Assembly: GCF_001013905.1 (NCBI RefSeq)
Contig: NZ_LN831790.1
Coordinates: forward strand, 7,144,001 to 7,208,000
Direction: 5' to 3'
Source of the DNA: Streptomyces leeuwenhoekii
GTDB lineage: Bacteria > Actinomycetota > Actinomycetes > Streptomycetales > Streptomycetaceae
Length of the DNA: 64,000 nucleotides
Shown here: piece by piece, positions 11,286 through 34,667 of the stretch
Layout: every line of letters begins with the position of its first letter
Position numbering within the stretch: the first letter of the stretch is position 1
Position numbers and translations under genes: made by a program
The notes under the pieces: model-generated
The model's database searches: none
Told to the model about the DNA's origin: nothing
What the model saw: the letters and a program-made list of their open reading frames with translations, nothing else

Positions 11286-11626
11286 CCGGCGGCGTGCTGG
11301 TGGGCCCGCACGATGGTGGAGTCGACCGACACCAGCCACTGGATGTCCCCGGCCGCGTCCTTCTCGGCCTGGATGGCCCGCAGCATGCGCGAGAAGGTGC
11401 CGTCCAGGGCCCACCTGCGGAAACGCGTGTACAGGGTCTGCCAGGAGCCGTACCGCTCCGGCACATCACGCCAGGCCGATCCGGTCCGCAGTTTCCACAC
11501 GATCCCGTTCAGCACCACCCGGTCGTCCGAACGAGGCCGCCCCGCGGTCCCTGAACTCGGCAGCAACCGCGACAACACCGCCCACTCGGCATCCGAAAGT
11601 TCATGACGACGCACCACGACAAGCAT
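11216..11626 (-). CDS. IS5-family transposase OrfA
   Basis: A 136-residue N-terminal part. It has the DUF4096-like start RRHELSDAEWAVLSRLLPSS, then GRPRSDDRVVLNGIVWKLRT, RYGSWQTLYTRFRRWALDG and the first catalytic Asp in VSVDSTIVRAHQHAAG (near residue 105). The frame ends soon after an AAAAGGGGG run. A frameshift there would fuse it to OrfB, the known strategy in the IS427 group of IS5 elements. Confidence 0.82.
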   Translation of the reverse strand: MLVVVRRHELSDAEWAVLSRLLPSSGTAGRPRSDDRVVLNGIVWKLRTGSAWRDVPERYGSWQTLYTRFRRWALDGTFSRMLRAIQAEKDAAGDIQWLVSVDSTIVRAHQHAAGGKRGRSTGTKRVVTPSADPEAD

Positions 11627-13503: not shown

Positions 13504-13522
13504 GACTGCGGCCTAACAACGG

Positions 13523-13993
13523 CTAACACAATGAGCCGAGTTGTCGGTGGGTGATCAGGCAGCAGGCGAGTTTGAGGAACGCTTCGTGGATGTCAGCCCG
13601 TCGTTCCCAGCGGATCCGCAGTCGTCGGAAGCCGTGCAGCCAGGCGAAGCTGCGCTCAATCACCCACCGGTAGGTACCCAGCCCGGTGCCATGTCGCGTG
13701 CCGCGCCGGGCGATCGCGGGCAGGATGCCTCGGTCGCGGACCCGGTCGCGGTAGATGTCGTGGTCGTAGCCCCGGTCGGCGAACAGGGCGTCGGGCTTGC
13801 GGCGCGGACGGCCCACCCGGCCGCGGACCGGCGGAATCGCATCGAGCAGGGGCAACAGCTGGGTGACATCATTGCGGTTGCCCCCGGTCAACAGGACCGC
13901 GAGGGGTGTGCCATGCCCGTCGGTGATCAGGTGGTGCTTCGAGCCGGCCCGCCCGCGGTCGACCGGCGAAGGGCCCGTGTGCTGCCCCCTTTT
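13523..13993 (-). CDS. IS5-family transposase OrfB (second element, frameshift product)
   Basis: This frame carries GSKHHLITDGHGTPLAVLLTGG, the catalytic Asp in ALFADRGYDHDIYRD and the Y-R-E signature YRWVIERSFAWLHGFRRL with the catalytic Glu. The start given marks the frameshift site; no independent start is proposed. Apart from the frame change, the transposase looks intact. Confidence 0.77.
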   Translation of the reverse strand, partial: KRGQHTGPSPVDRGRAGSKHHLITDGHGTPLAVLLTGGNRNDVTQLLPLLDAIPPVRGRVGRPRRKPDALFADRGYDHDIYRDRVRDRGILPAIARRGTRHGTGLGTYRWVIERSFAWLHGFRRLRIRWERRADIHEAFLKLACCLITHRQLGSLC

Positions 13994-14373
13994 AGGGCCC
14001 TGACGTGGGAGGAGTCGATCACGCAGCGGGACCAGTCCAGTCGCGATGCCGCGTTCAGCTCTGCGAGCAGAACTTCGTGGAGTCGCTGCCAGACGCCGGC
14101 CTCGTTCCAGTCCCGCAGCCGCCGCCAGCAGGTCATGCCCGAGCCGAAGCCCAGCTCCCTGGGCAGGTACTCCCACTGGATGCCGGTGTGCAGCACGTAC
14201 AAGATCCCGCACAGCACCTCCCGGTCCGGCAGCGGCTTGCGACCCGGGTACCGAAAGCGCCGCTCACGCTGCGGAAGCAGCGGCTCCAAGCGGTCCCACA
14301 GCTCATCCGACACGATCCACGGTGATGTCCCCACAACGAGGGGAACGCTCAACTCCTGCCCTGGACACGGCAA
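13927..14373 (-). CDS. IS5-family transposase OrfA (second element)
   Basis: About 148 residues from a TTG; a TTG a few codons later is an alternative start. It contains IVSDELWDRLEPLLPQRERR, PDREVLCGILYVLHTG, GSGMTCWRRLRDWNEAGVW and the first catalytic Asp in CVIDSSHVRALKGG. The frame runs out after the AAAAGGGGG run, where ribosomes would shift into OrfB. Confidence 0.8.
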   Translation of the reverse strand: MPCPGQELSVPLVVGTSPWIVSDELWDRLEPLLPQRERRFRYPGRKPLPDREVLCGILYVLHTGIQWEYLPRELGFGSGMTCWRRLRDWNEAGVWQRLHEVLLAELNAASRLDWSRCVIDSSHVRALKGGSTRALRRSTAGGPARSTT

Positions 14374-14561
14374 GCAGCAGTGATCCGCCTCATTGTGTTA
14401 GCCGTTGTTAGGGCAGGGGTGATCTGCCTACCTCGTACACCCTCTGAGACCAAACACGGCATCGGGTTTCTGCGCGCTTGTTGAACCCGCCACGGTCACT
14501 TCTTGGTGGTCAGTCGACATAATCGCCTGACCAATCGCTTACTGCAAGTTCTTCGGTGGTT

Positions 14562-15759: not shown

Positions 15760-17061
15760 GTGAATCTCTCATCAACAGGCACGGTGACCTATCCGTTTGA
15801 CGATGGCAAGGAAAAGGCACTCGCCCCGTATGACCCCGAACTGCGGGCGAGTTCCGGACTGGCCGAAGTGCGCATGTCCTTCGGTGACCCGGCCTGGCTG
15901 GTGACTCGGAACGTCGAGGTGCGCACCGCTCTTATGGACCAGCGGTTGCGCAGCAGGGAGCCAAGCATGGACCCTGGAGCGCCTCGGATGCATCCGGATA
16001 CACCGAGCATCCCGGTGAATATCGCGGCACTGAGCGGCCCCGAGCATGTGTGCGGGCGCAAGGTGATGGCCAAGTCGTTCACCGCGCGGCGTGTGCCCGA
16101 GTTCCAGCCGCGCACGACCGAGAGTAGCAGGGGCCTGGTGGACCGCCTGGTCGGCAACGGTCCGGTGGCCGACTTCGTGGACGTGTTCGCCCTGTCGCTC
16201 CCACTGCATGTTATCTGCGACATGCTGGGGGTGCCCGCCGGGGACGTCGGCCAGATCATGGAGTGGTCCGACGCCTTTCTGGAGATGAAGTTCACCGAGC
16301 CGGCCCCCCAGCAGGTCGGTGAGTACGTTACGGCGTTCACCGAGTACCTCGGCGGAATCATCGCGGCGCGGTTGGTCACCCTGGGCGAGGGAGTGATGGG
16401 CGAGATGGCCGAGGCCGTCGCGGCGGGCGCGGCCACTCTCCCCGAGGCGGCGATGCTGGCGCTGGGCCTGATGGTCACCGGGCTCGAAAATTCCAGCATC
16501 GCGCTGGCCAACTTCGTTTACGTGCTCGACCGCACGGACCAGCGGCGCGCGCTGTGCGACAACCAGCACTTGGTGCCCACCACGGTTGAGGAGCTGTTAC
16601 GGTTCCTGCCGTTGAGCGCGGGCGCCGTGCTGGCCGGGCAGGCAACCGAGGACGTCGCGGTCGACGACCACCTCGTCCGGGCGGGCGAGACGGTGATCCT
16701 CGCCTACGGCGCGGCCAACCGGGACGAGGCGGTGTTCCATCAGCCCGCTGAAGCGGAGCTGGACCGCGAGGCAAACACCCTGACGGAGCTGACCACGCGA
16801 ATGCCGGAGCTGCGCGTGCACGCCGCCGACGGCGAGCTGGCTTGGCTGATCACGAGGCAGTCCCGCGGGTTCGCGGAACTAGTGCCGCGGCAGGCAACGT
16901 TCGCCCGGTCGCGACGCCCGGCACGCCCTCTCGCCACACCGGCCGGAAGTCCGAGTACGTCCAGTACGAGAACTTCCGGCCGGCACACCGAGAGCACACA
17001 CCGGACGCCGCTCCTTGACGGGCAAACGTTGCCTGCCGCGGCACTAGCGGTTTCGTGGTGA
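15760..17061 (+). pseudogene. Cytochrome P450-like gene lacking the heme-binding loop, 3' end split by an insertion
   Basis: The frame is open for 433 codons from GTG 15760 (GGAAGGG upstream). It looks like a macrolide-cluster P450: GDPAWLVTRNVEVRTALMDQRLRSRE near the start, a weak I-helix LMVTGLENSSIALANF and the ExxR motif EELLR. After AANRDEAVF it goes straight from ELDREAN to TLTELTTRMPEL. The loop with the invariant heme Cys (FGxGxHxCxG) and the following helix, about 25 residues, are gone, so it cannot bind heme normally. Codons 375-429 come from a 165-bp insertion; without it the protein would end RGFAELAVSW, a standard P450 C-terminus. The stop overlaps the PKS start. P450-like glycosyltransferase helpers (EryCII, DesVIII) also lack the Cys but keep the loop length, and no glycosyltransferase is near. 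Confidence 0.8.
16880..17046. mobile_element. 163-bp MITE-like hairpin element inserted at CTAG in the P450 3' end
   Basis: The element spans 16882-17044, flanked by TA (16880-16881 and 17045-17046) within CTAG. Its ends are 25-bp inverted repeats with one mismatch, beginning GTGCCGCGGCAGGCAACGTT. Inside is a second stem, CCGGCCGGAAGT/ACTTCCGGCCGG (16939-16950/16972-16983), plus CTCTCG/CGAGAG (16928-16933/16989-16994), so the whole element folds into a long hairpin. It carries no gene. Insert plus duplicated TA is 165 bp, exactly 55 codons, so the reading frame stays open. Target and duplication match the two IS5-family elements in this window, suggesting mobilisation by an IS5-type transposase encoded elsewhere; the ends differ from both. 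Confidence 0.75.
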
Positions 17062-19980
17062 CCGAGCATCTGGGGGCGGGGCCAGTGGGTATCACACCGG
17101 AATCCAGGATCGACCGGCGGATCGCGATCGTTGGCTGGGGGTGCAGGCTCCCTGGCGCCGCAAACCCCTCGGCTTTCTGGCAACTGCTATGCGCGGGCGT
17201 GGACGCCGTGGGCACACCGCCTGCCGACCGGGTCGCCGACGGGGTGGCCGCGACGGCGATCGGCGGCTTCCTCGACCGCGTCGACGGCTTCGACGCCGGC
17301 TTCTTCGGCATTTCCCCGCGCGAGGCCGACGCCATGGACCCTCAACATCGGCTGCTCCTGGAGCTCACCTGGGAGGCACTGGAGGACGGGGGGCACCTCC
17401 CCGCCCGGCTGGCGGGCACTCGCACCGGGGTTTTCGTCGGTGCGATGTGGGGCGACTACGCGACCCTGACCACCCGGCACGGTGCTGACAGGCATTCAAT
17501 GACCGGGACCCAGCGGGCGATCCTGGCCAATCGGGTATCCCACCTGCTCGGTCTGCGCGGCCCCAGCCTGACCGTCGACACCGGGCAATCATCATCGTTG
17601 GTGGCCGTGCACCTTGCCTGCGAGAGCCTGCTCGCCGGCGAGTCCGAGATGGCTGTCGCCGCCGGGGTGAACCTCGTGCTGGCCGCGGAGAGCACCGCCG
17701 ATTCGGCCGGTCTCGGCGGGCTTTCCCCGGACGGCCGGTGTTTCACCTTCGATGCCAGGGCCAACGGCTACGTCCGCGGTGAGGGCGGGGTGGTGCTGAT
17801 GCTCAAGCCGCTGGCGCGCGCCCTCGCCGAGGGGGACACCGTGCACTGTGTGATCCGCAGCAGCGCGGTGAACAACGACGGCGCCACCGACGGCCTCACC
17901 GTGCCCAGCGCCGACGCGCAGCGCGAGGTGCTGCGCCTGGCCTACGAGCACGCCGGCGTCGACCCGGCGGACGTGCGCTATGTGGAGCTGCACGGCACCG
18001 GGACACCGGTCGGTGACCCGGTCGAAGCCGCGGCGCTCGGCGCTGTCCTCGGAGCGGGCCGGGCGGACGACGATCCGGTGCTCGTCGGCTCGGTCAAGAC
18101 CAACATCGGTCACCTGGAGGGTGCGGCGGGAATCGCCGGCCTGCTCAAGACAGGGCTCGCGATCGCACACGGCCACCTGCCGCCAAGCCTGAACTTCACC
18201 ACGCCGAACCCCGAGATCCCGTTGCGGGAGTTGAACCTGCGGGTCGTGCAAACGCCGCTGCCGTGGCCGGAGCCGGCCCGCGTCGCCGGGGTCAGCTCGT
18301 TCGGCATGGGCGGGACCAACTGCCACCTCGTGCTGTCAGAGGCGCCGAAGAGTGCCACCGCAGCACCGCCCGAGGTGACGCCGCTGCCGTGGTTGCTCTC
18401 CGCCTGTGGTGACGCGGCGCTGCGGGAGCAGGCTACGCGGCTGCGGGACACCATTGCTGAGCACGACCCGCACCCGGCCGACCTCGCGCACTCCCTGCTG
18501 CACCACCGGACGGCATTCGAGGACCGGGCCGTGGTCGTGGGCGCGGACCAGGACGAGCTCCGCCACGGTCTGGCCGCCTTCGCCGAGCACGGCGTCGCGG
18601 CGAACGTCGTGGGAGGCAAGGCCGTCGGCGGGCGGCGCCCGGTGTTCGTCTTTCCCGGGCAGGGCTCCCAGTGGGCGGGGATGGCCACTGAGCTGCTGGC
18701 GTCCTCCCCGGTCTTCGTCGAGCGGATCCGGGCGTGCGAACAGGCCCTGGCCCCGCACGTGGACTTCTCGCTCATCGACGTGCTGGGAAACGCGGTCGAT
18801 CTGGAACGGGTTGAGGTCGTGCAGCCCGCGCTGTTCGCAGTGATGGTCTCCCTCGCCGCGCTGTGGGAGGCGCACGGGGTGCGCCCGGCGGCCGTGCTCG
18901 GCCACTCACAGGGCGAGATCGCGGCGGCCTGCGTCGCCGGTGCCCTGTCACTGGCGGACGCGGCGAAACTGGTCGCGCTGCGCAGCCGGGCACTGGCCCG
19001 GCTCAGCGGCCGGGGCGGCATGGCCTCGATCATGCGGCCCGCCGCCGAGGTGACGGGCTGGCTGACGCGCTGGCCGGGCCGGATCGCCGTAGCCGCGGTC
19101 AACTCCCCGGCCGTCACCGTGGTGTCCGGCGAACCCGAGGCACTTGCGGAGCTGCTCGCCTGGTGCGCGACCGAGGGGGTCGACGCCCGCCGCGTCGCGG
19201 TGGACTACGCCTCACACTCAGCGCAGGTCGACCAAGTGCGCGAGGAGCTGCTCGAGGTGCTGGCCGGAATCCGGCCCCGACCGTCCGACGTCGCGTTCCT
19301 CTCCACGGTGACCGGGGCGGCGGTGGCCGACACCACCGCGCTCGACGCGGGCTATTGGTTCCGCAACCTGCGCGAGACCGTGCTCTTCGAGCCCGTCACC
19401 CGGGCGCTGCTCGACGCCGGGCACGACCTGTTCATCGAAGTCAGCCCCCACCCGGTGGTCGGCGTCGGGTTGCAGGAGATCATCGACGACACCGGCCACC
19501 CGGCCGCAGTGGTCGGCACCCTGCGTCGAGGTGACGGTGGCGCGCGCCGGTTCCTGACCGCGCTGGCCGAGGCGCACGTCCGGGGCGCCGACGTCGACTG
19601 GGGGGAATTCGTACCGCCCGCTCGCCGCGTGCCGCTGCCGACCTACCCCTTCCAGCGGGAACGGCACTGGCTCGACGGCGCGGAAGACCTGCCCCGGCCC
19701 GGCGCCCGCCCTCGCCCGGCACGCACTCGGATCCGGCCGGACCGGCCGTCCGCCGATCTGGTCCGCACCACCGTCGCCGCGGTACTGGGACATCCGGAGC
19801 CGGCCGCGGTTGACGTCAACCGCACCTACCGCGACCTGGGTTTCGACTCGATCGGTCTGACCGAGTTGCGCACCAGGCTGGCCGAGGCGACCGGGGCGCC
19901 ACTGACCACCACGACGTTGTTCAACAACCCCACCCCAGCCGCCCTGGCCCGGGCACTGGCCGCCGGATCTCGATCCGCTG
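17055..19980 (+). other. PKS loading module: KSQ-AT(methylmalonyl)-ACP
   Basis: The KS active-site Cys is replaced by Gln178 ([15 protein letters not shown]), the mark of a decarboxylating KSQ. The AT has GHSQG (Ser618) and YASH (718-721), which indicate methylmalonyl-CoA. ACP Ser932 lies in DLGFDSIGL. Prediction: propionate starter. Confidence 0.92.
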
Positions 19981-22900
19981 AAGCCGCGCTCGCCGCCGAA
20001 GTGACCGATCCCGACGACCCGGTGGCGATCCTGGCTATCGGCTGTCGCTACCCCGGCGGAGCGGGGACACCGGAGCGGCTGTGGCGGCTGGTCGCAGACG
20101 GGCGGGAGGCTCTCTCCACGTTCCCGGAAAACCGGGGCTGGGACCTCGGCGCCTTCACCAGGGCGGACACCACGTTTCCCCGCCGGGGTGGCTTCCTGCA
20201 CGACGCAGACCGGTTCGACGCCGCGCTGTTCGGCATCTCACCACGTGAGGCGCTGGCGATGGACCCGCAGCAACGGCTGCTGCTGGAGGTCTCCTGGGAG
20301 GCATTCGAGCGGGCCGGGATCAACCCGCACTCCTTGCGAGGCAGCGACACCGGCGTGTTCATCGGCGCGACCGCGCTGGACTACGGCCCTCGCCTGCACG
20401 AAGCGCCGGGCGGCGTCGCGGGCTACCTGCTGACCGGCAACACCACCAGTGTCGCCTCCGGGCGCGTGGCTTACAGCTTCGGACTGGAAGGCCCGGCGGT
20501 CACCGTGGACACCGCGTGTTCCTCGTCGTTGGTGGCCCTGCACCTGGCGGCGCAGGCTCTGCGGCACGGGGAGTGCGACCTGGCGCTGGCCGGTGGCGTG
20601 ACCGTCATGTCCACCCCAGGCATGTTCGTGGAGTTCGCCCGGCAGGGCGGTCTGTCCACGGACGGCCGCTGCAAGCCGTTCGCGGCCGCCGCGAACGGCA
20701 CCGGCTGGGCCGAGGGAGCCGGGCTCCTGCTGTTGGGACGACTGTCCGACGCGCGCCGCGATGGTCTTCCGGTGTTGGCGGTGGTGCGGGGCAGTGCGGT
20801 GAACCAGGACGGGGCGTCGAACGGGTTGACCGCGCCGAACGGCGTGGCGCAGGAGCGGGTGATCCGGCGGGCGTTGGCGTCGGCGGGGTTGGTCCCGTCT
20901 GATGTGGACGTTGTGGAGGCGCATGGGACCGGTACGGTGCTGGGTGATCCGATCGAGGCGCAGGCGTTGATCGAGGCGTACGGGCAGGGCCGGGACCGGC
21001 CGTTGTGGCTGGGGTCGGTGAAGTCGAACCTGGGGCATACGCAGGCGGCGGCGGGGGTCGCCGGTGTGATCAAGATGGTGCAGGCGATGCGGCACGGGGT
21101 GTTGCCGCGTACGTTGCATGTGGATGAGCCGTCGCCGCATGTGGACTGGTCGTCGGGTTCGGTGGAGTTGCTGACCGAAGCCCGGCCGTGGCCGGAGACC
21201 GGGCGGGCGCGGCGGGCCGGGGTGTCCTCGTTCGGCATCAGCGGCACCAACGCCCACGTCATCATCGAGGAGGCCGAACCCGTCGCGGAACCGGTGTCCG
21301 TGGCGCCGGACCGCTCGCTGGTGCCGTGGGTGCTGTCGGCGCGATCGCCGGAAGCTCTGCTGGAGCAGGCCGCACGGCTGTGCTCCTTCGCCGCCGAGGA
21401 GACCGCCGGCGCTGACGACGTCGCGTTCTCCCTGCTCACGGGCAGGGCGGGGCTGGCCTACCGCGCAGCTGTGACGGGACCCGACCGGGCCGCCCTGATG
21501 CGGGGGCTGCACGCGATCACCCCTGTCGCGGCAGGTGAGGGCCGGGTGGCGTTCTTGTTCTCCGGTCAGGGTTCCCAGCGCAGGGGAATGGGACGGGACC
21601 TCCGTGCCCGGTTCCCGGTGTTCGGGGAGGCCTTCGACGAGGTGTGTGCGTACTTCGATCCGGCGGTGGTGTCGGCGTTGGATGATGCGGAGGCGTTGGA
21701 GCGTACCGATCATGTGCAGCCGATGTTGTTCGCCTTCGAGGTGGGGTTGTGTCGGTTGCTGGGGTCGTGGGGTGTGCGGCCGGATGTGGTGTTGGGGCAT
21801 TCGCTGGGTGAGTTGGTGGCCGCGCATGTCGCGGGTGTGTGGTCGCTGGCTGATGCGTGTGCGGTTGTGGTGGCGCGGGGCCGGTTGATGGGTGCGTTGC
21901 CCTCTGGTGGGGTGATGGTGTCGGTTCGTGCGAGTGAGGCGGAGGTGTTGCCGCATCTGGTTGATGGGGTGTGGGTTGCCGCGGTGAACGGGCCGCGTTC
22001 CGTGGTGCTGTCCGGGGATGAGGGGGCGGTGCTGGCGGTGGCCCAGCGGTGGGAGTCGACTCGCCTGCGGGTTTCGCATGCTTTCCACTCTCATCATATG
22101 GATGCCGTGCTTGATGACTTCGCGGAGGTGTTGCGGGGTGTGGAGTTCCATGCTCCGGTGATCCCGGTGGTGTCCAATGTGTCCGGTGCGGTGGCGGGGG
22201 AGGAGATCGCTACCCCGGAGTACTGGGTGCGCCACGTCCGGGAGGCCGTCCGCTTCGCCGATGGGGTGGACACCCTGACCGCACTCGGCGCCACCACCTG
22301 CCTGGAAGTGGGCCCAGATGCCGTGCTGACCGCGATGGCCGGGGACCGGGTCACCGCCTTCCCCACCGCTCGCCTGGGCCACGACGAGGACCGGACCCTG
22401 CTCACAGCCCTCGCCCAGGCCCACGTCCACGGCGTCGAGGTGAACTGGGCGGAGGTGTTCACCGGATTCGGCGCCCGCCGAGTCGACCTGCCCACCTGTG
22501 CCTTCCAGCGCGAGAGCTTCTGGCTGACCGGGGGCGCGCACCGGGCCGACCCGGTCGCGCTCGGCCTTGCCGCGGCGGACCACCCGCTGCTCGGTGCTGC
22601 CCTTCCGGTCGCCGATGCCGACGAGGTGTTGCTCACTGCTCGATTGTCCCCGGCCGGACAACCGTGGCTCGCCGGTCACACCGTGCTCGGCGGGGTGGTG
22701 CTGCCCGGTACAGCGGTGCTGGAGCTGGCGTTGCGGGCGGGGGAGGAGGTCGGCTGCCCGGTGGTGGACGACCTGGTCCTGGCCCAACCGCTCGTCCTGG
22801 CCGACGGCACTCAGGTGCAGGTCAATGTCGGCGCCCCGGGGACCGACGGGCGCAGGCTGCTCACCCTGCACTCCCGCGACGGTGACGGCGACTGGACCCG

Positions 22901-25900
22901 GCACGCGAGCGGGTTCCTCACCGACGACCCCGCACCCCCGGCTGAGGACCTGATCGAGTGGCCGCCCCCGGGGGCCACCGCGGTCCCGGTGACTGGGCGC
23001 TATGACACCCTCGCCGAGCTGGGTTTCGAGTACGGACCGGCGTTCCAGGGGTTGCGCGGGCTGTGGCACCGCGGTGCCGAGGTCTTCGCCGAGGTGTCGC
23101 TGCCCGAAGCAGCCGACCCCCCAGCCGACCGGTTCGGCCTGCACCCGGCGCTCGCGGACGCGGCCGTGCAGGCGGTGGCCTTCGGTCCTGCCGGGGCCGT
23201 CGAGGCGGGCCGCTTGCCGTTCTCCTTCACCGGTGTGCACCTGCACCGCCGGGGGGCTGGTGCGCTGCGCGTCCGGTTCACCCCGGTAGGCACGGACACT
23301 GTCGCGGTGCTGTTCGCCGACCGGACCGGCGCGCCGGTGGCCTCGATCCAGTCGCTCGTGCTGCGGCCAGTGCCAGAGGACCTGCGCGCCACCCTGCGTG
23401 GGAAGGCCGCTCTGCCGGTGCACCGCCTCGAGTGGGCTCCGGTGGCCGCGCCGGCGGTGGCCGCCACGCACGCCCGGCTCGGTGACTGCGACCTAGGAGA
23501 CGGCCCCGTTCACCCCGACCTCGCCCATCTGAGCCGCACGATCACTGAGGGCGCGCAGGCCCCCGATCTCGTCGTCACCGACTGGCGGGGCGCGGGCACG
23601 GCCGATCCGGTCGCCGCCGCGCACGCCGCGACGGCCGCAGTGCTGGCGCTGGTGCAGGAGTGGCTGGCCGACGAACACTTCGCGGGCTCCCGGCTGGTCG
23701 TGGTGACCCGGCACGCCATCGCGGTCCGGCCCGGCGAGGACGTGCCCGACCTCGCGCACGCGCCGCTGTGGGGCCTGCTGCGTTCGGCGCAGTCCGAGCA
23801 CCCCAACCGGTTCGTCCTCATCGACCTCGACGACTCCCCGCTGCCCGCCGACGCGCTCCGCACCGACGAGCCACAGTTGGCCGTCCGGCGCGGAGAAATC
23901 CTCACCCCCCGGCTCACCGTGGCACCGGCCACCTCCGCCACCCCGGTCTGGCGCGGCTCCGGTACGGTGCTCATCACCGGTGGTACCGGCGCCCTGGGTT
24001 CGGCCATCGCCCGCCACTTGGTGGCCGAGCACGGCATCCGGTCCCTGCTGCTGACCGGCAGGCGCGGGCTCGCCGCGCCCGGTGCCGAACAGCTCCGGGA
24101 CGAGCTCACTGCGCTCGGCGCCGAGGTCACCGTCGCCGTGTGCGACGTCACCGACCGGGCGGACCTCGCTCGGTTGCTGGCCGACGTGCCACGTCTGACC
24201 GGCGTCGTGCATGCCGCGGGCGTCTTGGACGACGGCGTGGTCTCCGCCCTGACGCCGGACAGGGTGCACACCGTCGCCCGGCCCAAGGTCGACGCCGCGT
24301 GGCACCTGCACGAACTGGCCGGGGAGGTCTCCGCCTTCGTGTTGTTCTCATCGGTGTCCGGCCTGCTCGGCACGGCAGGTCAGGCAGGGTACGCCGCGGC
24401 CAACACCTTCCTTGACGCCCTCGCCGCACACCGCAGGGCTCGCGGTCTGCCCGCCACGTCGCTGGCCTGGGGTCTCTGGGCACTCGGGGGCGGCATGGCG
24501 GCGGGCCTGGACGAGGCCGGACTCGCCCGCATGGCCCGGCTCGGCGTCGGCCCGCTGACCGTTGCCGACGGGCTGGCCCTGTTCGACACCGCCTGCGCCG
24601 CCGAGGCCGCTCTGGTCGTCCCCGTGCGCCTGGACCGGTCGGTCCTGCGGGCCGCCGAGGTTCCGCCGCTGTTGCGAGGGCGGGGCTCGCGCCCGGGCGC
24701 GAGCGAGTGGAACCGCACCGGCCTGGCGGAGCTTGCCGACGCCGACCGTGAGCGTGCCCTAACGGCGCTGATCTGCGCAGAGGCGGCGACCGGGCTGGGT
24801 CACGGCAGCTCGGCCGCCGTCGATGCGGACCGGGCGTTCAGCGACCTCGGTTTCGACTCGCTCGCCGCGGTCGACCTGCGCAACCGGCTCGCCTCCGCCA
24901 CCGGCCTGCGGCTGTCCGCGACCGTGTTGTTCGACCACCCCACCCCGGTGGCCCTCGCCGCGCATCTGGCGAGGGAGTTCGGCCTGCAAGCGGAGCCGGC
25001 CGTCAGGGTCACCGCCGTGTCCGGTGAGCCGATCGCCATCGTGGGCATGGCCTGCCGCTACCCGGGCGGCGTTGCTTCACCGGAGGGCCTGTGGCGGTTG
25101 GTGGCCGCCGGTGGCGATGCCATCACCGGCTTCCCGATCGACCGGGGCTGGCCGCTGGCGGAGCTGTTCCACCCCGACCCGGATCGACCGGGGGCGTCGT
25201 ATGCGCGGGCGGGTGGGTTCCTGCACGGGGCGGCGGAGTTCGATGCGGACTTCTTCGGGATCTCCCCGCGTGAGGCGCTGGCGATGGACCCGCAGCAGCG
25301 GCTGCTGCTGGAGACGGCGTGGGAGGTGTTCGAGGAGGCGGGGATCGACCCGCTGTCGTTGCGCGGCAGCCACACCGGGGTGTTCGCCGGGGTCATGTAC
25401 CACGACTACGCCGCCCGGGTGCGGGTTGCGCCCGACGGGCTGGAGGGTTACCTCGGCAACGGCAGTTCTGGCAGTGTGGCTTCCGGCCGGGTGGCTTACG
25501 CCTTCGGTTTCGAGGGGCCGGCGGTCACGGTGGACACGGCGTGTTCGTCGTCGTTGGTCGCGTTGCATCTGGCGGCGCAGGCGTTGCGGCAGGGGGAGTG
25601 TGATCTGGCGCTGGCCGGTGGGGTGACGGTGATGTCCACTCCCACTACGTTCGTGGAGTTCTCCCGTCAGCGGGCGTTGGCCGCGGATGGGCGCTGCAAG
25701 TCGTTCGCGGCTTCGGCTGACGGTACCGGTTGGGGCGAGGGTGTCGGGCTGTTGTTGGTGGAACGGCTTTCCGATGCCCGGCGGAACGGCCACCAGGTGT
25801 TGGCGGTGGTGCGGGGCAGCGCGGTCAACTCCGACGGGGCGTCCAATGGGCTGACCGCGCCGAACGGTCCGGCGCAGGAGCGGGTGATCCGGCAGGCGCT

Positions 25901-28900
25901 GGGGTCGGCGGGGCTGGTCCCGTCCGATGTGGACGTTGTGGAGGCGCACGGGACCGGTACGGTGCTGGGTGATCCGATCGAGGCGCAGGCGTTGATCGCG
26001 GCGTACGGGCAGGACCGGGACCGGCCGCTGTGGCTGGGGTCGTTGAAGTCCAACATCGGGCACACCCAGGCGGCGGCCGGGGTCGGTGGTGTGATCAAGA
26101 TGGTGCAGGCGATGCGGCACGGGGTGTTGCCGCGTACGTTGCATGTGGATGAGCCGTCGCCGCATGTGGACTGGTCGTCGGGTTCGGTGGAGTTGCTGAC
26201 CGAAGCCCGGCCGTGGCCGGAGACCGGGCGGGCGCGACGGGCCGGGGTGTCATCCTTCGGTATCAGCGGCACCAACGCCCACGTGGTGCTGGAACATGTG
26301 GCAGAACCGGAGACCGCGGCGCCGGCGAGCATGCCGGTCGTGCCGCTGGTGTTCTCCGCGCGCTCCGCTGATGCAGTCCGGGAACAGACCGCGCGGGTAG
26401 CGGGGCTGCTGCGCGGCGACGCGGCACCGGACCCGGTGGACCTCGGGTTCTCGCTGGCGACGACCCGGGCAGCGTTGCCTTGCCGCGCGGCTGTCGTGGG
26501 AGCCGACCGCGCCGAACTGGTGCGCGCCCTGACGACCGTGGTACCCCGCGAGGCGCGGTCCGGGCTGGTGGCGTTTGCCTTCTCCGGTCAGGGTGCGCAG
26601 CGGGCAGGGATGGGGCGTCGGTTGGCGGAGGCGTTCCCGGTGTTCGGGGAGGCCTTCGACGAGGTGTGTGCGTACTTCGATCCGGCGGTGGTGTCGGCGT
26701 TGGATGATGCGGAGGCGTTGGAGCGTACCGATCATGTGCAGCCGATGTTGTTCGCCTTCGAGGTGGGGTTGTGTCGGTTGCTGGGGTCGTGGGGTGTGCG
26801 GCCGGATGTGGTGTTGGGGCATTCGCTGGGTGAGTTGGTGGCCGCGCATGTCGCGGGTGTGTGGTCGCTGGCTGATGCGTGTGCGGTTGTGGTGGCGCGG
26901 GGCCGGTTGATGGGTGCGTTGCCCTCTGGTGGGGTGATGGTGTCGGTTCGTGCGAGTGAGGCGGAGGTGTTGCCGCATCTGGTTGATGGGGTGTGGGTTG
27001 CCGCGGTGAACGGGCCGCGTTCCGTGGTGCTGTCCGGGGATGAGGGGGCGGTGCTGGCGGTGGCCCAGCGGTGGGAGTCGACTCGCCTGCGGGTTTCGCA
27101 TGCTTTCCACTCTCATCATATGGATGCCGTGCTTGATGACTTCGCGGAGGTGTTGCGGGGTGTGGAGTTCCATGCTCCGGTGATCCCGGTGGTGTCCAAT
27201 GTGTCCGGTGCGGTGGCGGGGGAGGAGATCGCTACCCCGGAGTACTGGGTGCGCCACGTCCGGGAGGCCGTCCGCTTCGCCGATGGGGTGGACACCCTGA
27301 CCGCACTCGGCGCCACCACCTGCCTGGAAGTGGGGCCGGGGGCGGCGCTGACGAGCCTGGTGACTGAACAGGGCAACCTGCGCGCGGTGGCCGTCGCGCA
27401 CCACGGCGGCCAGGACGAGGTCCGGTCAGTGGCCACCGGTCTCGGCCACCTGCACGAGGCAGGCGTTCCGATCGACTGGGCCGCCTTTTTCGCGGGCACC
27501 GGGGCGCGGGCGGTTCCACTGCCGACCTACCCCTTCCAACGGTCCCGGTACTGGCTCGACGCCGACGAGCACCCAACGGGCGAGGCCTCCGGGGCGGCGG
27601 ATGACCGCTTCTGGGGACTGGTCGACCGCGGTGACGTCTCCGCGCTGGCGGACGCGCTGGAGCTCGACGGGGCCGACGTGGCGCGGGTCCTGCCCGCTCT
27701 GGCCATGTGGCGGCGGGAGCACGAGGAGCGGTCCGAGGTGGCCGGCTGGCGTTACCGGCTCGAGTGGCGGCCGGTGGCCGGGAACCGCGCCGGGCGGCTA
27801 TCCGGGACCTGGTTGTGTGTGCTGCCCGCCGGAAATCCGGATTGCCCGATCGTCGACGGGCTCACCGCCCGGGGCGCGCGGGTGCTGACCGTCGATGTCG
27901 GTGCGGGTGAGGACCGAACCGACGTGGCCGCGCGGGTCGGGGCCGAGCTGATCAGGGATGGCGACCTCACCGGAGTGGTGTCGCTGCTGGCATCCAGTGG
28001 ACTGGAACCGACCTGTGCGCTCGTGCAGGCGTTGGGTGACCTGGGGATCACCGCGCCCCTGTGGTGCCTGACCCGGGGTGCGGTGTCGGTCTCCGCCGCC
28101 GACCGGTTGCACAGTCCAGACCAGGCCCAGATCTGGGGTTTCGGTCGCGTCGCGGCCCTGGAACACCCGGACCTATGGGGCGGATTGGCCGACCTGCCCG
28201 TGACCGTCGACGAACGCGCACTGGACCTGCTGGTCCGGGTGCTGACCTCGGCCGAGGAGGACCAGGTTGCGATCCGGGCGGCCGGGGTGTTCGCCCGCCG
28301 CCTAGTGCCTGCCGCACTTCCGGCGACCGCGAACCCGCCGACGTGGTCCCCGCCCTCGGGCACGGTGTTGATCACCGGCGGCACCGGGGACGTCGGCGCG
28401 CACGTCGCCCGCTGGCTGGCCCGGCACGGTGCTCAGCACCTGCTGCTGGCCAGTCGCCGGGGCCCCGAGGCGGCCAGCGCGGCGGCGCTGGTAGAGGAAC
28501 TGGTCGAGCTCGGCGCCCACGCCACCGTCGCCGCGTGCGACACCGCCGACCGTGACGCGCTCGCCGCTCTGCTGGCCGGTATCCCGGCGGATCGGCCGCT
28601 GACCGCGGTGATGCACGCGGCCGGGGTCCTCGACGACGGCCTGGTCGACTCACTCGACGCCGACCGGCTGGCCCGGGTGCAGCGGCCCAAGGTCGACGCC
28701 GCCCGCCACCTCGACGAACTGACCCGTGAGGCGGACCTCGCCGCGTTCGTCGTCTTCTCCTCCCTCACCGGCACCGTCGGCAACCCCGGCCAGGCCAACT
28801 ACGCCGCGGCCAATGCCTACCTCGACGCGCTCGCCGCCCAGCGCCGCGCCGACGGCAGGGTGGCCACGGCGATCGCCTGGGGCCCGTGGTCGCAGACCGG

Positions 28901-31900
28901 CATGGCCGCAGCCCCCGATCTCGCCCGAGGACTGCGCCGCGTGGGTCTCACCCCGATGCCGCCCGACCGGGCGATCACCGCGCTGGGCCGGGTGCTGGCT
29001 GAGGGCGATGCCGAGGTCACCATCGCCGACATCGACTGGAACCGGTTCGCCCCCGCCTTCACCGCAGGCAGGCCCAGCCCGCTGCTGACCGAGCTCCGCC
29101 CCGGGAACGACGCCCCGGCCGCCGTACCGGGAGGGCTGCGCGAACGGCTGGCCGGGCTGGTCGGCCCGGACGCCGAGCGCGCCGTGCTGGACCTGGTCCG
29201 CACCGAGGCCGCCGCCGTGCTCGCCCACTCCGACCCAGAGACCGTCGCCGCCGAGCGGGCCTTCCGCGACCTCGGTTTCGATTCGCTCACCGCCCTCAAC
29301 CTCCGCAACCGGCTCGTTGCGGCAACCGGCCTGCGGCTGTCGGCGACCGTGGTGTTCGACCACCCGACCGCCGCCGCTCTGGCCGGGCACCTGCACGCGG
29401 AGCTGACCGGTGCGCCCTCGGGCGGACCGGCCGAACGGCCCTTGCCCGCCGCGGTGTCCGACGACCCGGTCGTGATCGTGGCCATGGGCTGCCGCTTCCC
29501 CGGCGGGGTGGCCGATCCCGAACAACTGTGGCGGTTGCTGGCCGACGGCCGGGACGCCATCGGTCCGTTCCCCGGCGACCGGGGCTGGGACCTCGAACGC
29601 CTGCTCAACCCGAACCCGGACCGGCCGGGCACCAGCGCCAGCGTGGTGGGCGTCGGCGCGTTCCTCGACGACGTGGCCGGGTTCGACCCGGCGCTGTTCG
29701 GGATCTCCCCGCGTGAGGCGCTGGCGATGGACCCGCAGCAGCGGCTGCTGCTGGAGACCGTGTGGGAAACCCTGGAACGCGCGGGCATCCCCCCGACGCT
29801 GCTGCGCGGCAAGCCGGTGGGGGTGTTCGCCGGGACCAACGGGCAGGACTACGCGACCCTGCTCACCGAGGCCGACGCCGACGTGCGCGGCCACCTGATG
29901 ACCGGCAACGCGGCGAGCGTCCTGTCCGGCCGGGTGGCCTACACGTTCGGTTTCGAGGGGCCGGCGGTCACGGTGGACACGGCGTGCTCCTCGTCGCTGG
30001 TGGCCATGCACCTGGCGGCGCAGGCTCTGCGGCAGGGGGAGTGCGACCTGGCGCTGGCCGGCGGGGTGACCGTCATGTCCGGGCCCGGCGCGTTCGTGGA
30101 GTTCTCGCGGCAGCGCGGGCTGGCTCCGGATGGCCGGTGCAAAGCCTTCTCCGCCTCGGCTGACGGTACCAGCTGGGGTGAGGGTGTCGGGCTGGTGCTG
30201 CTGGAACGGCTTTCCGATGCCAGGCGGAACGGCCACCAGGTGCTGGCGGTGGTGCGGGGCAGTGCGGTGAACCAGGACGGGGCGTCGAACGGGTTGACGG
30301 CGCCGAATGGTCCGTCGCAGCAGCGGGTGATCCGGCGGGCGTTGGCGTCGGCGGGGTTGGTCCCGTCTGATGTGGACGTTGTGGAGGCGCATGGGACCGG
30401 TACGGTGCTGGGTGATCCGATCGAGGCGCAGGCGTTGATCGCGGCGTACGGGCAGGGCCGGGACCGGCCGTTGTGGCTGGGGTCGGTGAAGTCGAACCTG
30501 GGGCATACGCAGGCGGCGGCGGGGGTCGCCGGTGTGATCAAGATGGTGCAGGCGATGCGGCACGGGGTGTTGCCGCGTACGTTGCATGTGGATGAGCCGT
30601 CGCCGCATGTGGACTGGTCGTCGGGTTCGGTGGAGTTGCTGACCGAAGCCCGGCCGTGGCCGGAGACCGGGCGGGCGCGGCGGGCCGGGGTGTCCTCGTT
30701 CGGCATCAGCGGCACCAACGCCCACGTCATCATCGAGCAGGCGCCCCAAGACACCGCCCCGGCCGCCGAGCCGGCCGAGTCGCCAATGGCGCTGGTACCG
30801 CTGGTAATGTCGGCAGGGTCGGCCGAGGCGCTACGGGAACAGGCACGACGCTTGCACACCGCGGCAACCGGTGACCTCACCGCCCTGGGCCGATCCCTAG
30901 TCACGACCCGGTCGGCGCTGGACCACCGAGCGGTCGTGCTTGTTGAGGACCGGACGTCGACGGTGGACGGCCTCACCGCGCTCGCCGAGGGCAACCCCTC
31001 GGCCGCAGTGGTCACCGGAGTGGTGCGCCGCGCCCCGGGGCGGACCGGATTCCTGTTCCCGGGTCAGGGCTCCCAGTACAGGGGAATGGGACGGGACCTC
31101 CGTGCCCGGTTCCCGGTGTTCGGGGAGGCCTTCGACGAGGTGTGTGCGTACTTCGATCCGGCGGTGGTGTCGGCGTTGGATGATGCGGAGGCGTTGGAGC
31201 GTACCGATCATGTGCAGCCGATGTTGTTCGCCTTCGAGGTGGGGTTGTGTCGGTTGCTGGGGTCGTGGGGTGTGCGGCCGGATGTGGTGTTGGGGCATTC
31301 GCTGGGTGAGTTGGTGGCCGCGCATGTCGCGGGTGTGTGGTCGCTGGCTGATGCGTGTGCGGTTGTGGTGGCGCGGGGCCGGTTGATGGGTGCGTTGCCC
31401 TCTGGTGGGGTGATGGTGTCGGTTCGTGCGAGTGAGGCGGAGGTGTTGCCGCATCTGGTTGATGGGGTGTGGGTTGCCGCGGTGAACGGGCCGCGTTCCG
31501 TGGTGCTGTCCGGGGATGAGGGGGCGGTGCTGGCGGTGGCCCAGCGGTGGGAGTCGACTCGCCTGCGGGTTTCGCATGCTTTCCACTCTCATCATATGGA
31601 TGCCGTGCTTGATGACTTCGCGGAGGTGTTGCGGGGTGTGGAGTTCCATGCTCCGGTGATCCCGGTGGTGTCCAATGTGTCCGGTGCGGTGGCGGGGGAG
31701 GAGATCGCTACCCCGGAGTACTGGGTGCGCCACGTCCGGGAGGCCGTCCGCTTCGCCGATGGGGTGGACACCCTGACCGCACTCGGCGCCACCACCATCG
31801 TCGAGGTCGGCCCGGGGCACCAGCTTACGGCCGCGGCGCGGGAGAACACCGGCCAGGGTGTGTTCCTGGTACCGGCCCTGCGCCGTGAGCGCGCCGAGGA

Positions 31901-34667
31901 GCGCGCCGCGCTCACCGCCCTCGCCGAACTGCACACGCACGGCGTGCCCGTCGACTGGGCCGCCTTGTTCCCGGACACCACCGTCGTCCCACTGCCTACC
32001 TACGCCTTCCAGCACAAGCGATTCTGGTTGCGTCCCCAGCCCTCCGAGGGCAACCTCGCGGGTGCCGGGCTCGACCCGGCCGGGCACCCGTTGCTCGGCG
32101 CCGCCGTCCGGCTCGCCGACGACGGACTGGTCTTCACCGGCACGGTGTCCACCACGACCCACCCGTGGCTGGCCGACCACACGGTCTCCGGCTCGGTGCT
32201 GCTCCCCGGCACCGCCCTGCTCGACCTTGCCGCACACGTAGCCCGGCACTTGGGCCTGGCCTCGGTGGCAGAACTGACCCTGGCCGCACCGCTGACCCTC
32301 ACCGGCGAGGCCGCCGTGACGATCCAGCTCGAGGTCAGCGCCCCGGACGACACCACCGGGCGCCGCACCCTGGTCGTGCTCTCCCGCCCCGACACCGGCA
32401 CCCCATGGACCCGGCACGCCACCGGGGTACTGGAGACGGACCCGGGCACACCGGCCCGGTTGGACGCCTGGCCGCCTCTGGGTGCCACACCACTGGCTGT
32501 CGACCACCTCTACCCGGAGCTTGCCGAGGCCGGTTTCGGTTACGGACCTGCCTTCCAGGGCCTGCGCCGGGCCTGGCGGCACGGCGAGGACCTCCTCGCC
32601 GAGGTAAGCCTCCCTGAGGGCACCGGCGAGGAGCCCTCGGGCTTCACCGTGCACCCGGCCCTGCTCGACGCCGCCCTGCACACCCTGGGGCTGCGGCCGG
32701 GCCAGGCCACCGGCCCTGGCAGCAGCGGACTGCCGTTCTCCTGGCAGGACGTGCGGCTCGGCGCCCTCGGCCGCACCGGTCTGCGGGTCCGGCTGGCACC
32801 GGTCGCGGACGGCTGGTCACTGACCACCACCGACGAGCGCGGTGAACCCGTGCTGTCGGTCGGCACCGTTGTCTTCCGCCCGGTCTCCCTCGGCATCGCT
32901 CACCGGAACTCTCTGTTCCGCCTCGGCTGGGTGCCCGGTCCCCGGACGCCCAGGCAGGCCGCCGTGCTCGGCTGCCTGCCCCACGGCGACGGCGGCCTGC
33001 CGTGCTTCCCGGACCTCGACGCACTCGCCGCCGCCGGCTCGATGCCGGAGGTCGTCCTGGTCTCCGCGGGCACCGAGGCACTGCGAGAACGGCTCGCCGC
33101 CGTGCTACAGCTGGTCCAACAGTGGTTGTCTGACACCAGGTTCGCCGGGTCGCGACTGGTGTTCGTCACCAGCGGCGCGGTCTCGGCGGGCGCTCCGGCC
33201 AGTGACGTCGCTGGTGCCGCCGTATGGGGGCTACTGCGCTCGGCCGAGGCCGAGTACCCCGGGCGCTTCGGTCTGCTCGACGTGGACGGCGGGTCCGCGG
33301 TGCCGACCGGCGGGCTGCCCGAGAGCGCCGTGCGCGACGGCGTGGTGCTGGTGCCCCGGCTCGCCCGGGTCACCGCGCCTGCCGGGAACCCGCCCCGGCT
33401 GGCAGGCACGGTCCTGGTCACCGGCGCGAGCGGCCGCCTTGGCGCGGAGATCACCCGACGGCTGGTGCACACCCACGGGGTGCGCAGGCTCGTGCTGATC
33501 AGCAGGAGCGGAGCCGACGACCTCGCGGCCGAGCTCACTGATGCGGAGGTCGTCTCCGTCCGGGGCGATGCCGCGGACCGGGACACCCTCGTCCGTGTGC
33601 TCGCCGGCATTCCCGCCGAGGCGCCGCTGACCGCCGTCGTGCACACCGCGGGTGTGCTCGACGACGGAGTGGTCAAGGCACTTACCCCGGAGCGGCTCGA
33701 CACCGTGCTGCGCCCGAAGTTCGACGCCGTCACCCACCTCGACGAGCTGACCCGGGACCACGGCCTGGCCGCGTTCGTTGTGTTCTCCTCGGCCGCGGGC
33801 ACCCTCGGCAGCGCGGGCCAGGCCGGCTACGCTGCCGCCAACGCCGCCCTTGACGCCGTGGTCACCCGGCGGCACACCCTCGGCCTTCCCGCGACTGCGC
33901 TGGCGTGGGGGCCGTGGGCCGGGGAGCACGGGATGACCGCTGGGCTAGGCGAGGCCGACCGAGCCCGCCTGGCCCGCAACGGAGTGCTGCCGTTGCCGGT
34001 CGAGGACGGACTGGCCCTCTTCGATGCCGCCCTCGGCCTCACCACCGATCCTGTGCTGCTGCCGGTCCGGCTGTCCGAGTCCGCGCCGGACGTACTGCCC
34101 CCGCTCGCCGACGTGCTGCGCTCCCGGACCACCCGGACGGCGGCCACCGAGTCACCGGATGCGTTGCGGGCCACGGTCTTCCGGCTCGGCCCGGCCGAGG
34201 GCGAGCAGGCACTGCTCGCCATGGTGCGCGCACACGTCGCAGTGGTCCTCGGGCACGACCACACCGAGGAGGTCGACCCGGACCGCGGCTTTCTCGACAC
34301 CGGGCTCGACTCGCTGACTGCGATCGAGCTGCGTAACCGGCTTATCACCGCAACTGGGCTGGCTTTGCCGCCGACCCTGCTGTTTCAGTACGCCACCCCG
34401 TCCGAGCTCGCCGCCCACCTGCGCGCCGAGCTGGTCACCGAGGACCCCGGAGTGGCCCCCTCGTCCGTGCTCGGCGAACTCGACCGGATCGAAGGGGCCC
34501 TGCCCGAGATGACCGGCGGTGCGCGGGAGGAGGCCATCGACCGGTTGCGCCGGATGCTGGCCGCACTCAGTGCCGGACCGGCCGGGGACAGCGTGCTCGC
34601 CGGGCTCGACGACGCGACCAACGACGAGATCTTCGACTTCATCGACACCGAGTTCGGAGCGTCCTGA
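17055..34667 (+). CDS. Modular type I PKS, gene A: loading module + modules 1-3
   Basis: A 5870-residue polyketide synthase. Domain order: KSQ-AT-ACP / KS-AT-DH-KR-ACP / KS-AT-KR-ACP / KS-AT-DH-KR-ACP. It starts the chain by decarboxylating methylmalonyl-ACP to propionyl-ACP and then adds three malonyl units. All extender KS domains have the active Cys and all ACPs the phosphopantetheine Ser. The start GTG 17055 overlaps the P450-like stop (17059-17061); GTG 17085 is an alternative, since the KS only begins near 17115. No Shine-Dalgarno precedes 17055 because the hairpin insertion ends 8 nt before it. The C-terminus ([14 protein letters not shown]) is a docking helix for gene B. The three AT domains are identical in DNA over about 700 bp. 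Confidence 0.95.
20013..24990 (+). other. PKS module 1: KS-AT(malonyl)-DH-KR(B)-ACP
   Basis: KS Cys1155. AT GHSLG (Ser1583) and HAFH (1675-1678) indicate malonyl-CoA. DH has [10 protein letters not shown] (His1875) and Asp2035. KR has GGTGALG, VLDD (B-type), Ser2433 and Tyr2446. ACP Ser2602. Predicted product: an E double bond next to the starter. Confidence 0.9.
21581..22312 (+). repeat. AT repeat, copy 1 (module 1)
   Basis: Bases 21611-22312 match 26633-27334 and bases 21581-22298 match 31079-31796 with no difference seen by eye. The stretch covers nearly all of the malonyl AT, from just after the first AT motif to the end of its core. It is rich in TTG, CAT, GAT and GCG codons, unlike the flanking C-ending codons. 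Confidence 0.9.
25470..25897 (+). repeat. KS patch shared by modules 2 and 8 (gene A copy)
   Basis: 428 bp identical to 55080-55507 in gene D, 29.6 kb away. It spans the KS active-site Cys region and the following core. Confidence 0.88.
26633..27334 (+). repeat. AT repeat, copy 2 (module 2)
   Basis: 702 bp identical to 21611-22312 (offset 5022). The flanks before 26633 and after 27334 diverge at once, as expected for a copied patch. Confidence 0.9.
30099..30763 (+). repeat. KS patch shared by modules 3 and 5 (gene A copy)
   Basis: 665 bp matching 40595-41259 in gene B with a single difference (A at 30171, Ser versus Gly). Identity continues through the KS-AT linker start and stops abruptly at 30763. 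An upstream segment around the KS Cys is shared as well. Confidence 0.88.
31079..31796 (+). repeat. AT repeat, copy 3 (module 3)
   Basis: 718 bp identical to 21581-22298 (offset 9498). The 5' end of identity is 30 bp longer than for copy 2, so the copies had different crossover points. Confidence 0.9.

Follow-up and report, generated by a model that had tools for sequence, protein, structure and literature searches.

A MITE with IS630-type ends in a P450-like gene of Streptomyces leeuwenhoekii and the hairpin core that it shares with IS5-ended elements

The window considered here is a stretch of 64,000 nucleotides of the Streptomyces leeuwenhoekii genome (contig NZ_LN831790.1, positions 7,144,001–7,208,000), in which a P450-like gene overlaps the start of a long PKS gene. 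A short palindromic element lies within the 3′ end of the P450-like gene, immediately ahead of the PKS start. The features of the locus, in window coordinates, are the following.

15760–17061, plus strand: P450-like ORF of 433 amino acids, of which residues 375–429 come from the insertion (ORF, Pfam and homologue alignment)
16776–16777, plus strand: site of a gap of about 24 residues, heme-binding cysteine loop included, by comparison with homologues (alignment and structure)
16880–16881, no strand: TA target duplication, left copy, within CTAG at 16879–16882 (homologues without the insert)
16882–17044, no strand: non-autonomous MITE of 163 bp with IS630-type ends (sequence, inverted repeats, folding and end comparison)
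16882–16907, plus strand: left terminal inverted repeat, GTGCCGCGGCAGGCAACGTTCGCCCG (inverted-repeat search)
16912–17010, minus strand: 99-nt core hairpin, shared with IS5-ended elements (95.2 bits on the minus strand and 45.4 on the plus strand with a covariance model built on 56 sequences, this core being one of them)
17019–17044, minus strand: right terminal inverted repeat, with one mismatch to the left repeat (inverted-repeat search)
17045–17046, no strand: TA target duplication, right copy, within CTAG at 17044–17047 (sequence)
17055–34667, plus strand: PKS ORF of 5870 amino acids, starting 8 nt past the duplicated TA (ORF)

Anatomy of the insertion and its neighbouring genes

The original prediction described a palindromic, MITE-like hairpin of 163 bp with near-matching inverted ends and a TA doubled within CTAG, and this description proved accurate. 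The single inverted pair reported in 16700–17200 by an inverted-repeat search consists of the MITE arms at 16879–16907 and 17019–17047 (29 nt, 97% complementary), and the right terminal repeat differs from the left at one position; CTAG is present at both flanks. The plus strand of 16870–17060 folds with a free energy of −122.5 kcal/mol, compared with −76.3 ± 4.3 kcal/mol for shuffled sequences (z = −10.85), and none of 200 shuffles was as stable. The element is short, bears terminal inverted repeats and contains neither a transposase gene nor any other gene, as expected of a MITE. Together with the duplicated TA it amounts to 165 bp, or 55 codons, stop-free in the P450-like frame, and the ORF at 15760–17061 is unbroken. 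The proposal of a non-autonomous, TA-flanked mobile element that kept the reading frame is thereby supported.

Removal of the insert had also been predicted to restore the original P450 ending. In all eight aligned homologues, drawn from 538 matches of which 120 were listed, the motif RG...(L/M) runs directly into PV(A/S/G)W; the 55 residues are absent, and in none of the eight do they form a conserved P450 tail. A search of genome contigs with the P450 returned one distant locus and no close orthologous cluster, and the empty site is therefore documented at the protein level only. Pfam still recognises a P450 in the ORF. A gap of 24 residues in the window protein falls where eight of eight homologues carry the heme loop and its cysteine, and the best solved structure aligns with the protein up to residue 339 only. 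Because the heme-binding cysteine loop is missing, the P450-like protein is probably inactive and has probably lost heme binding.

The hairpin arm had been placed 8 nt ahead of the PKS GTG, which is correct when counted from the duplicated TA to 17055; an alternative PKS GTG at 17058 overlaps the P450 stop codon TGA. An influence of the hairpin on PKS translation had been suggested as well, and its proximity to the GTG and the stability of its stem would favour strong control. Folding lends no support to an effect of this size. For the stretch between 20 nt before and 17 nt after the GTG at 17058, the predicted unpairedness was, with the insert and in the empty site respectively, 0.34 and 0.32, 0.34 and 0.30, or 0.22 and 0.31, according to the context folded; the shifts in accessibility are small and inconsistent in direction. 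The stem, moreover, lies inside the translated P450 ORF, whose stop overlaps the PKS start, and strong control of PKS translation by the hairpin at this locus is accordingly unlikely. The plus strand, which is transcribed in the P450–PKS direction, yields the weaker form of the hairpin (−114.2 versus −142.8 kcal/mol). Since the P450–PKS transcript carries this weaker form, we expect a mild effect at the locus, and translational coupling between the two genes is expected to persist, given the overlapping stop and start.

Ends, transposases and copies of the element

An IS5-type transposase had originally been named as the mover of the element. The target (CTAG/TA), the CTAG-style ends of some IS5-family elements of the genus, the occurrence elsewhere of the same core between IS5-type ends and the presence of IS5-family genes in the window are all consistent with this. 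The ends, however, match IS630-family ends at 15 of the 17 positions after CTAG and six IS5 ends at 6 of 17 at best, and the window's own IS5-family element (approximately 13510–14410) has quite different ends as judged by eye, so that movement by an IS5-family transposase was not borne out and appears very improbable. In a random control, none of 5000 sequences reached 14 matches against the best of eight ends, the top value being 13 of 17. Judged by its ends, the window element is thus assigned to the IS630-derived MITEs. The IS5-family element in the window comprises two overlapping minus-strand frames (13523–14373) and has the ends CTAACAACGGCTAACACAATGAG (by eye); a second IS5-family (DUF4096) transposase match lies at 11384–11599 of the window on the minus strand (G000:C3:7155384–7155599).

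The IS630-type ends can be followed to transposases. Some single ends adjoin a transposase C-terminus, and two of the transposases in question pass the NCBIfam IS630 equivalog NF033545 with 131 and 147 bits (cut-off 100), the one at 131 bits also carrying DDE_3. The loci of the closest transposases (30 loci, L123–L152), at which the IS630 ends read about CTAGTGCCGCATCAGGCAACGTTCGCCC by eye, were screened for bracketing ends. With up to 8 mismatches of 25, ends stood on both sides at 21 of the 30 loci, on one side at eight and on neither at one, against none on both sides and three on one side for a reversed-pattern control; with up to 5 mismatches the figures were 18, 11 and one, and the control gave none on both sides and none on one side. 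Between some IS630-type ends there is no transposase but a passenger gene: RibD_C at L104, a similar ORF at L115 (by eye), an alpha/beta-hydrolase-like gene at L116 (below Pfam cut-offs) and a gene without assignment at L099. Mobile insertion cassettes are likewise built of ends that enclose passenger genes without a transposase; these four loci resemble them, whereas the window element carries no gene.

Further copies of the element and of its ends, for which the original prediction had called, occur in the host and throughout the genus. The host genome holds four further full-length copies (81–93% identical), one copy lacking the right end (76%) and shorter pieces, so that several copies occupy unrelated sites. 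Across the genus, 163 of 295 genomes, host included, contain a match to the element (E ≤ 1e-6), and among the matches listed many cover only the core. When no more than one mismatch was allowed, the end pattern was found in 48 of the 295 genomes, again including the host, and a control pattern had no matches. One host copy (L005, G000:C3:655294–655461) has as a neighbour, at most about 200 bp away, an IS630-like gene whose product is 27% identical to the partner transposase. Matches were found in 15 plasmid records of Streptomyces and two of Embleya, one match of the plasmid search being that in NZ_CP107797.1 (Streptomyces sp. NBC_00557) at 49625–49726, and a search of phage records with the element gave no match. 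The core covariance model, run with filters that lose weak matches, detected the core at E ≤ 1e-6 in 14 of 28 genomes from this genus but in none of 268 other genomes of the class; the core is nevertheless not strictly confined to one genus, because Embleya plasmids match the element.

One genome, G539, contains a 1738-bp IS630 with matching ends and 83% transposase identity. Thirteen core matches score alike in this genome, and from them 12 elements were obtained, each flanked by different sequence and 10 of them identical over 169 bp; as extraction demanded CTAG on the left and GGCACTAG on the right, the CTAG flanks of these 12 elements are not independent evidence. A recent burst has thus taken place in G539, a genome with a matching IS630. 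A candidate helper transposase is therefore present in G539 and missing in the host, where the search for a close IS630 transposase gave as its best matches a protein 27% identical over 287 residues and a 48-residue fragment at 44%. Five copy-rich genomes (G125, G172, G046, G229 and G248) likewise lack a close IS630 transposase, the nearest being at most about 39% identical. The absence of a close helper suggests that the host copy is probably stranded and now immobile; it does not exclude derivation from IS630, since a MITE may outlive its helper. We infer that the element was transposed in trans by an IS630 transposase, a candidate helper having been identified in G539 but not for most copies.

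Among 117 distinct placeable copies, counted at loci with recognisable ends after removal of duplicates and short flanks, 36 have convergent neighbours, 19 and 10 lie in the two orientations relative to tandem genes, three have divergent neighbours, and for 49 the neighbour on at least one side could not be called clearly. Placement is thus mostly at gene 3′ ends (convergent 36 versus divergent 3, P = 4e-8), and the orientation bias relative to tandem host genes is not significant (19 versus 10, P = 0.14). Copies at L043, L047, L050, L053 and L058 seem by eye to begin exactly at the TAG stop of the upstream gene, which is to be expected because the target is CTAG.

In the history that we propose, an IS630 transposase acting in trans would have inserted the MITE at CTAG with duplication of TA; the additional 163 + 2 bp, stop-free in frame, would have extended the C-terminus of the P450-like protein by 55 residues, and the overlap with the PKS start would have been left intact.

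The inner core and its pairing on the minus strand

Within the genus, many listed matches are limited to about positions 31–132 of the query. At 20 such core-only places that were fetched, the same core is bounded by quite different ends, which start on the left with CTAG in 11 cases, with a variant such as CCAG or CTGG in eight and with neither in one (by eye). Compared with ends of the IS5 family, the ends of type c (G038) and of type h (G056) match at 16 of 17 positions each, and weaker matches were obtained for types b (12), e (13), f (11), d (9) and g (7). The transposase at L194 is IS5 by the NCBIfam IS5 equivalog (295 versus 110 bits), and the second end at this locus is not intact; among 30 IS5-family loci screened, only some have clear inverted ends near CTAG. 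The end sequences firmly indicate that one core is carried between the ends of two unrelated transposase families, the assignment being firm for type a (IS630) and for types c and h (IS5). The inner 99-nt core is a distinct module. Some short palindromes have similar ends yet no core, and an extra short hairpin (approximately TCCCCCAAGCTCTTCGAGCAGGGGG) is visible by eye within the left arm of the core at L006, L007, L069 and L070.

The arms of the core pair fully on the minus strand only. Of 62 distinct cores, 55 are exactly 99 nt long; in these, the arms read on the plus strand contain 515 A·C cells and 12 G·U cells; on the minus strand, these A·C cells become G·U wobbles and the G·U cells become A·C mismatches. 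The consensus folds with −89.2 kcal/mol on the minus strand and −57.5 kcal/mol on the plus strand, and for every one of the 62 distinct cores the minus strand gives the better fold. The skew of A·C to G·U recurs in IS630-type (329:7), IS5-type (313:8) and unassigned cores (88:6), these sets having been sorted roughly by simple patterns. The core alignment comprises 56 sequences, lengths of 95, 97, 101 and 106 nt and the diverged 98-nt cores of L178 and L167 having been left out. In it 97.6% of the cells are paired, both sides have changed at 10 pairs, and double-change cells number 52 against 11.0 in shuffles (none of 500 as high), although neither these counts nor the shuffles remove the relatedness among the copies and the counts are not phylogenetically independent. 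At consensus Watson–Crick pairs, uncompensated states are A·C in 66 cells and G·U in 11, or 20 versus 8 by pair positions (P = 0.036). The minor alleles at paired sites are balanced (15 G>A and 14 C>T), and strand-biased mutation therefore does not explain the 66:11 excess. There is a strong, though not conclusive, case for constraint on the core as a hairpin of the minus strand, the counts not being corrected for phylogeny.

The core is also present, without recognisable ends, in the leader between ilvC and serA at two loci (L252:1501–1599 and L256:1501–1599), as detected by the covariance model with 89 versus 42 and 51 versus 16 bits on the minus and plus strands, respectively. The other 50 serA loci gave no full-length core match (best 29.2 bits over 41 nt), on which ground the serA leader was rejected as the ancestral source of the core. 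When the leader flanks were compared in both directions, a flanking motif was found in 34 of 52 serA leaders, the two carriers included; it encloses an uninterrupted GGCTAG in 13, other sequence in 16 and a related GACACCGA stretch in five, namely the two carriers, L281, L286 and the host's own L288. We read the serA-leader core as a probable CTAG insertion with later internal deletions, which could have been co-opted or be decaying; it may instead be an older segment of the leader.

These observations bear on the alternative that the core is inert filler spread by recombination between MITEs, its minus-strand pairing having come from one ancestor or from strand-biased mutation. Nine consensus A·C pairs could indeed stem from a single ancestor, the cells are not independent, and no significant orientation bias toward host genes was found; yet the uncompensated states are skewed toward A·C despite balanced minor alleles, the skew persists by pair positions, ten pairs show double changes, and the copies in the serA leader favour the minus strand even without ends. 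We regard inert filler as possible though doubtful. A small peptide encoded by the core is hardly credible: some families have AAGGAG ahead of a possible minus-strand GTG, and the b family lacks it (both by eye), cores of 95, 97, 98 and 101 nt exist beside those of 99 nt, and the minor alleles are flat over the codon positions (34, 33 and 31), which ruled this candidate out.

Searches of Rfam with the element returned only two miRNA families, far below gathering scores, and those with L252 and L256 returned nothing at E ≤ 0.5. We infer that the core hairpin works as RNA, for example as an RNase III-sensitive or stability-modulating stem in 3′-UTRs; action as single-stranded DNA is less likely. 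Our reading, which is plausible though put forward tentatively, is that selection maintains the core as a hairpin RNA module with strand specificity, which has repeatedly swapped ends, rides in one genus on MITEs of two unrelated DDE transposase families (IS630 and IS5) and is sometimes kept without recognisable ends, as in the serA leader of two genomes.

Relation to known elements and biological meaning

Mobile palindromes of comparable design are described from other bacteria. According to the passages that concern it in two papers (PMC2229807, PMC3049150), RUP of Streptococcus pneumoniae is a 107-bp MITE with IS630-Spn1 as its proposed mover. It resembles the window element in being a short, multicopy palindrome with a TA target and IS630-like ends; the window element differs in genus and sequence, in its CTAG target and GC-richness, and in a core shared with IS5-ended elements. 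In BOX of Streptococcus suis, as presented in the section of PMC3049150 that treats it together with RUP and SPRITE, the same boxB lies between boxA/C or boxE/F flanks, a precedent for module sharing. The likeness, one internal module with different end modules, is one of architecture and not of sequence; the Streptomyces elements contain one core each instead of a tandem array, and their two end types can be assigned to transposase families. The accounts in PMC2229807 further cover NEMIS/Correia of Neisseria, whose hairpin RNA is proposed to act on mRNA via RNase III, as well as RPE of Rickettsia and ERIC/RU-1, with in-frame fusion to proteins for RPE and RU-1. The likeness to NEMIS thus lies in the hairpin RNA and that to RPE and RU-1 in the in-frame fusion; the hosts are unrelated and, as far as these accounts extend, the strand-specific G·U pattern is seen for the Streptomyces core only. 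The window element is a fresh variant among bacterial MITEs such as RUP and BOX. A literature search, most subscription journals being outside its reach, gave no report of the element or its core in Streptomyces among the matches listed.

As a whole, we consider it very probable that an IS630 (Tc1/mariner-like) MITE of the host genus was inserted here in trans and that its core is a separate module. The family provides a test case of a structured nucleic-acid module carried by unrelated transposases, mostly at gene 3′ ends. For natural-product work in a genus of important antibiotic producers, the locus illustrates how the in-frame insertion of a mobile hairpin can make a biosynthetic protein longer, and it flags the P450 of this cluster, the gene in which the MITE sits, as probably dead.
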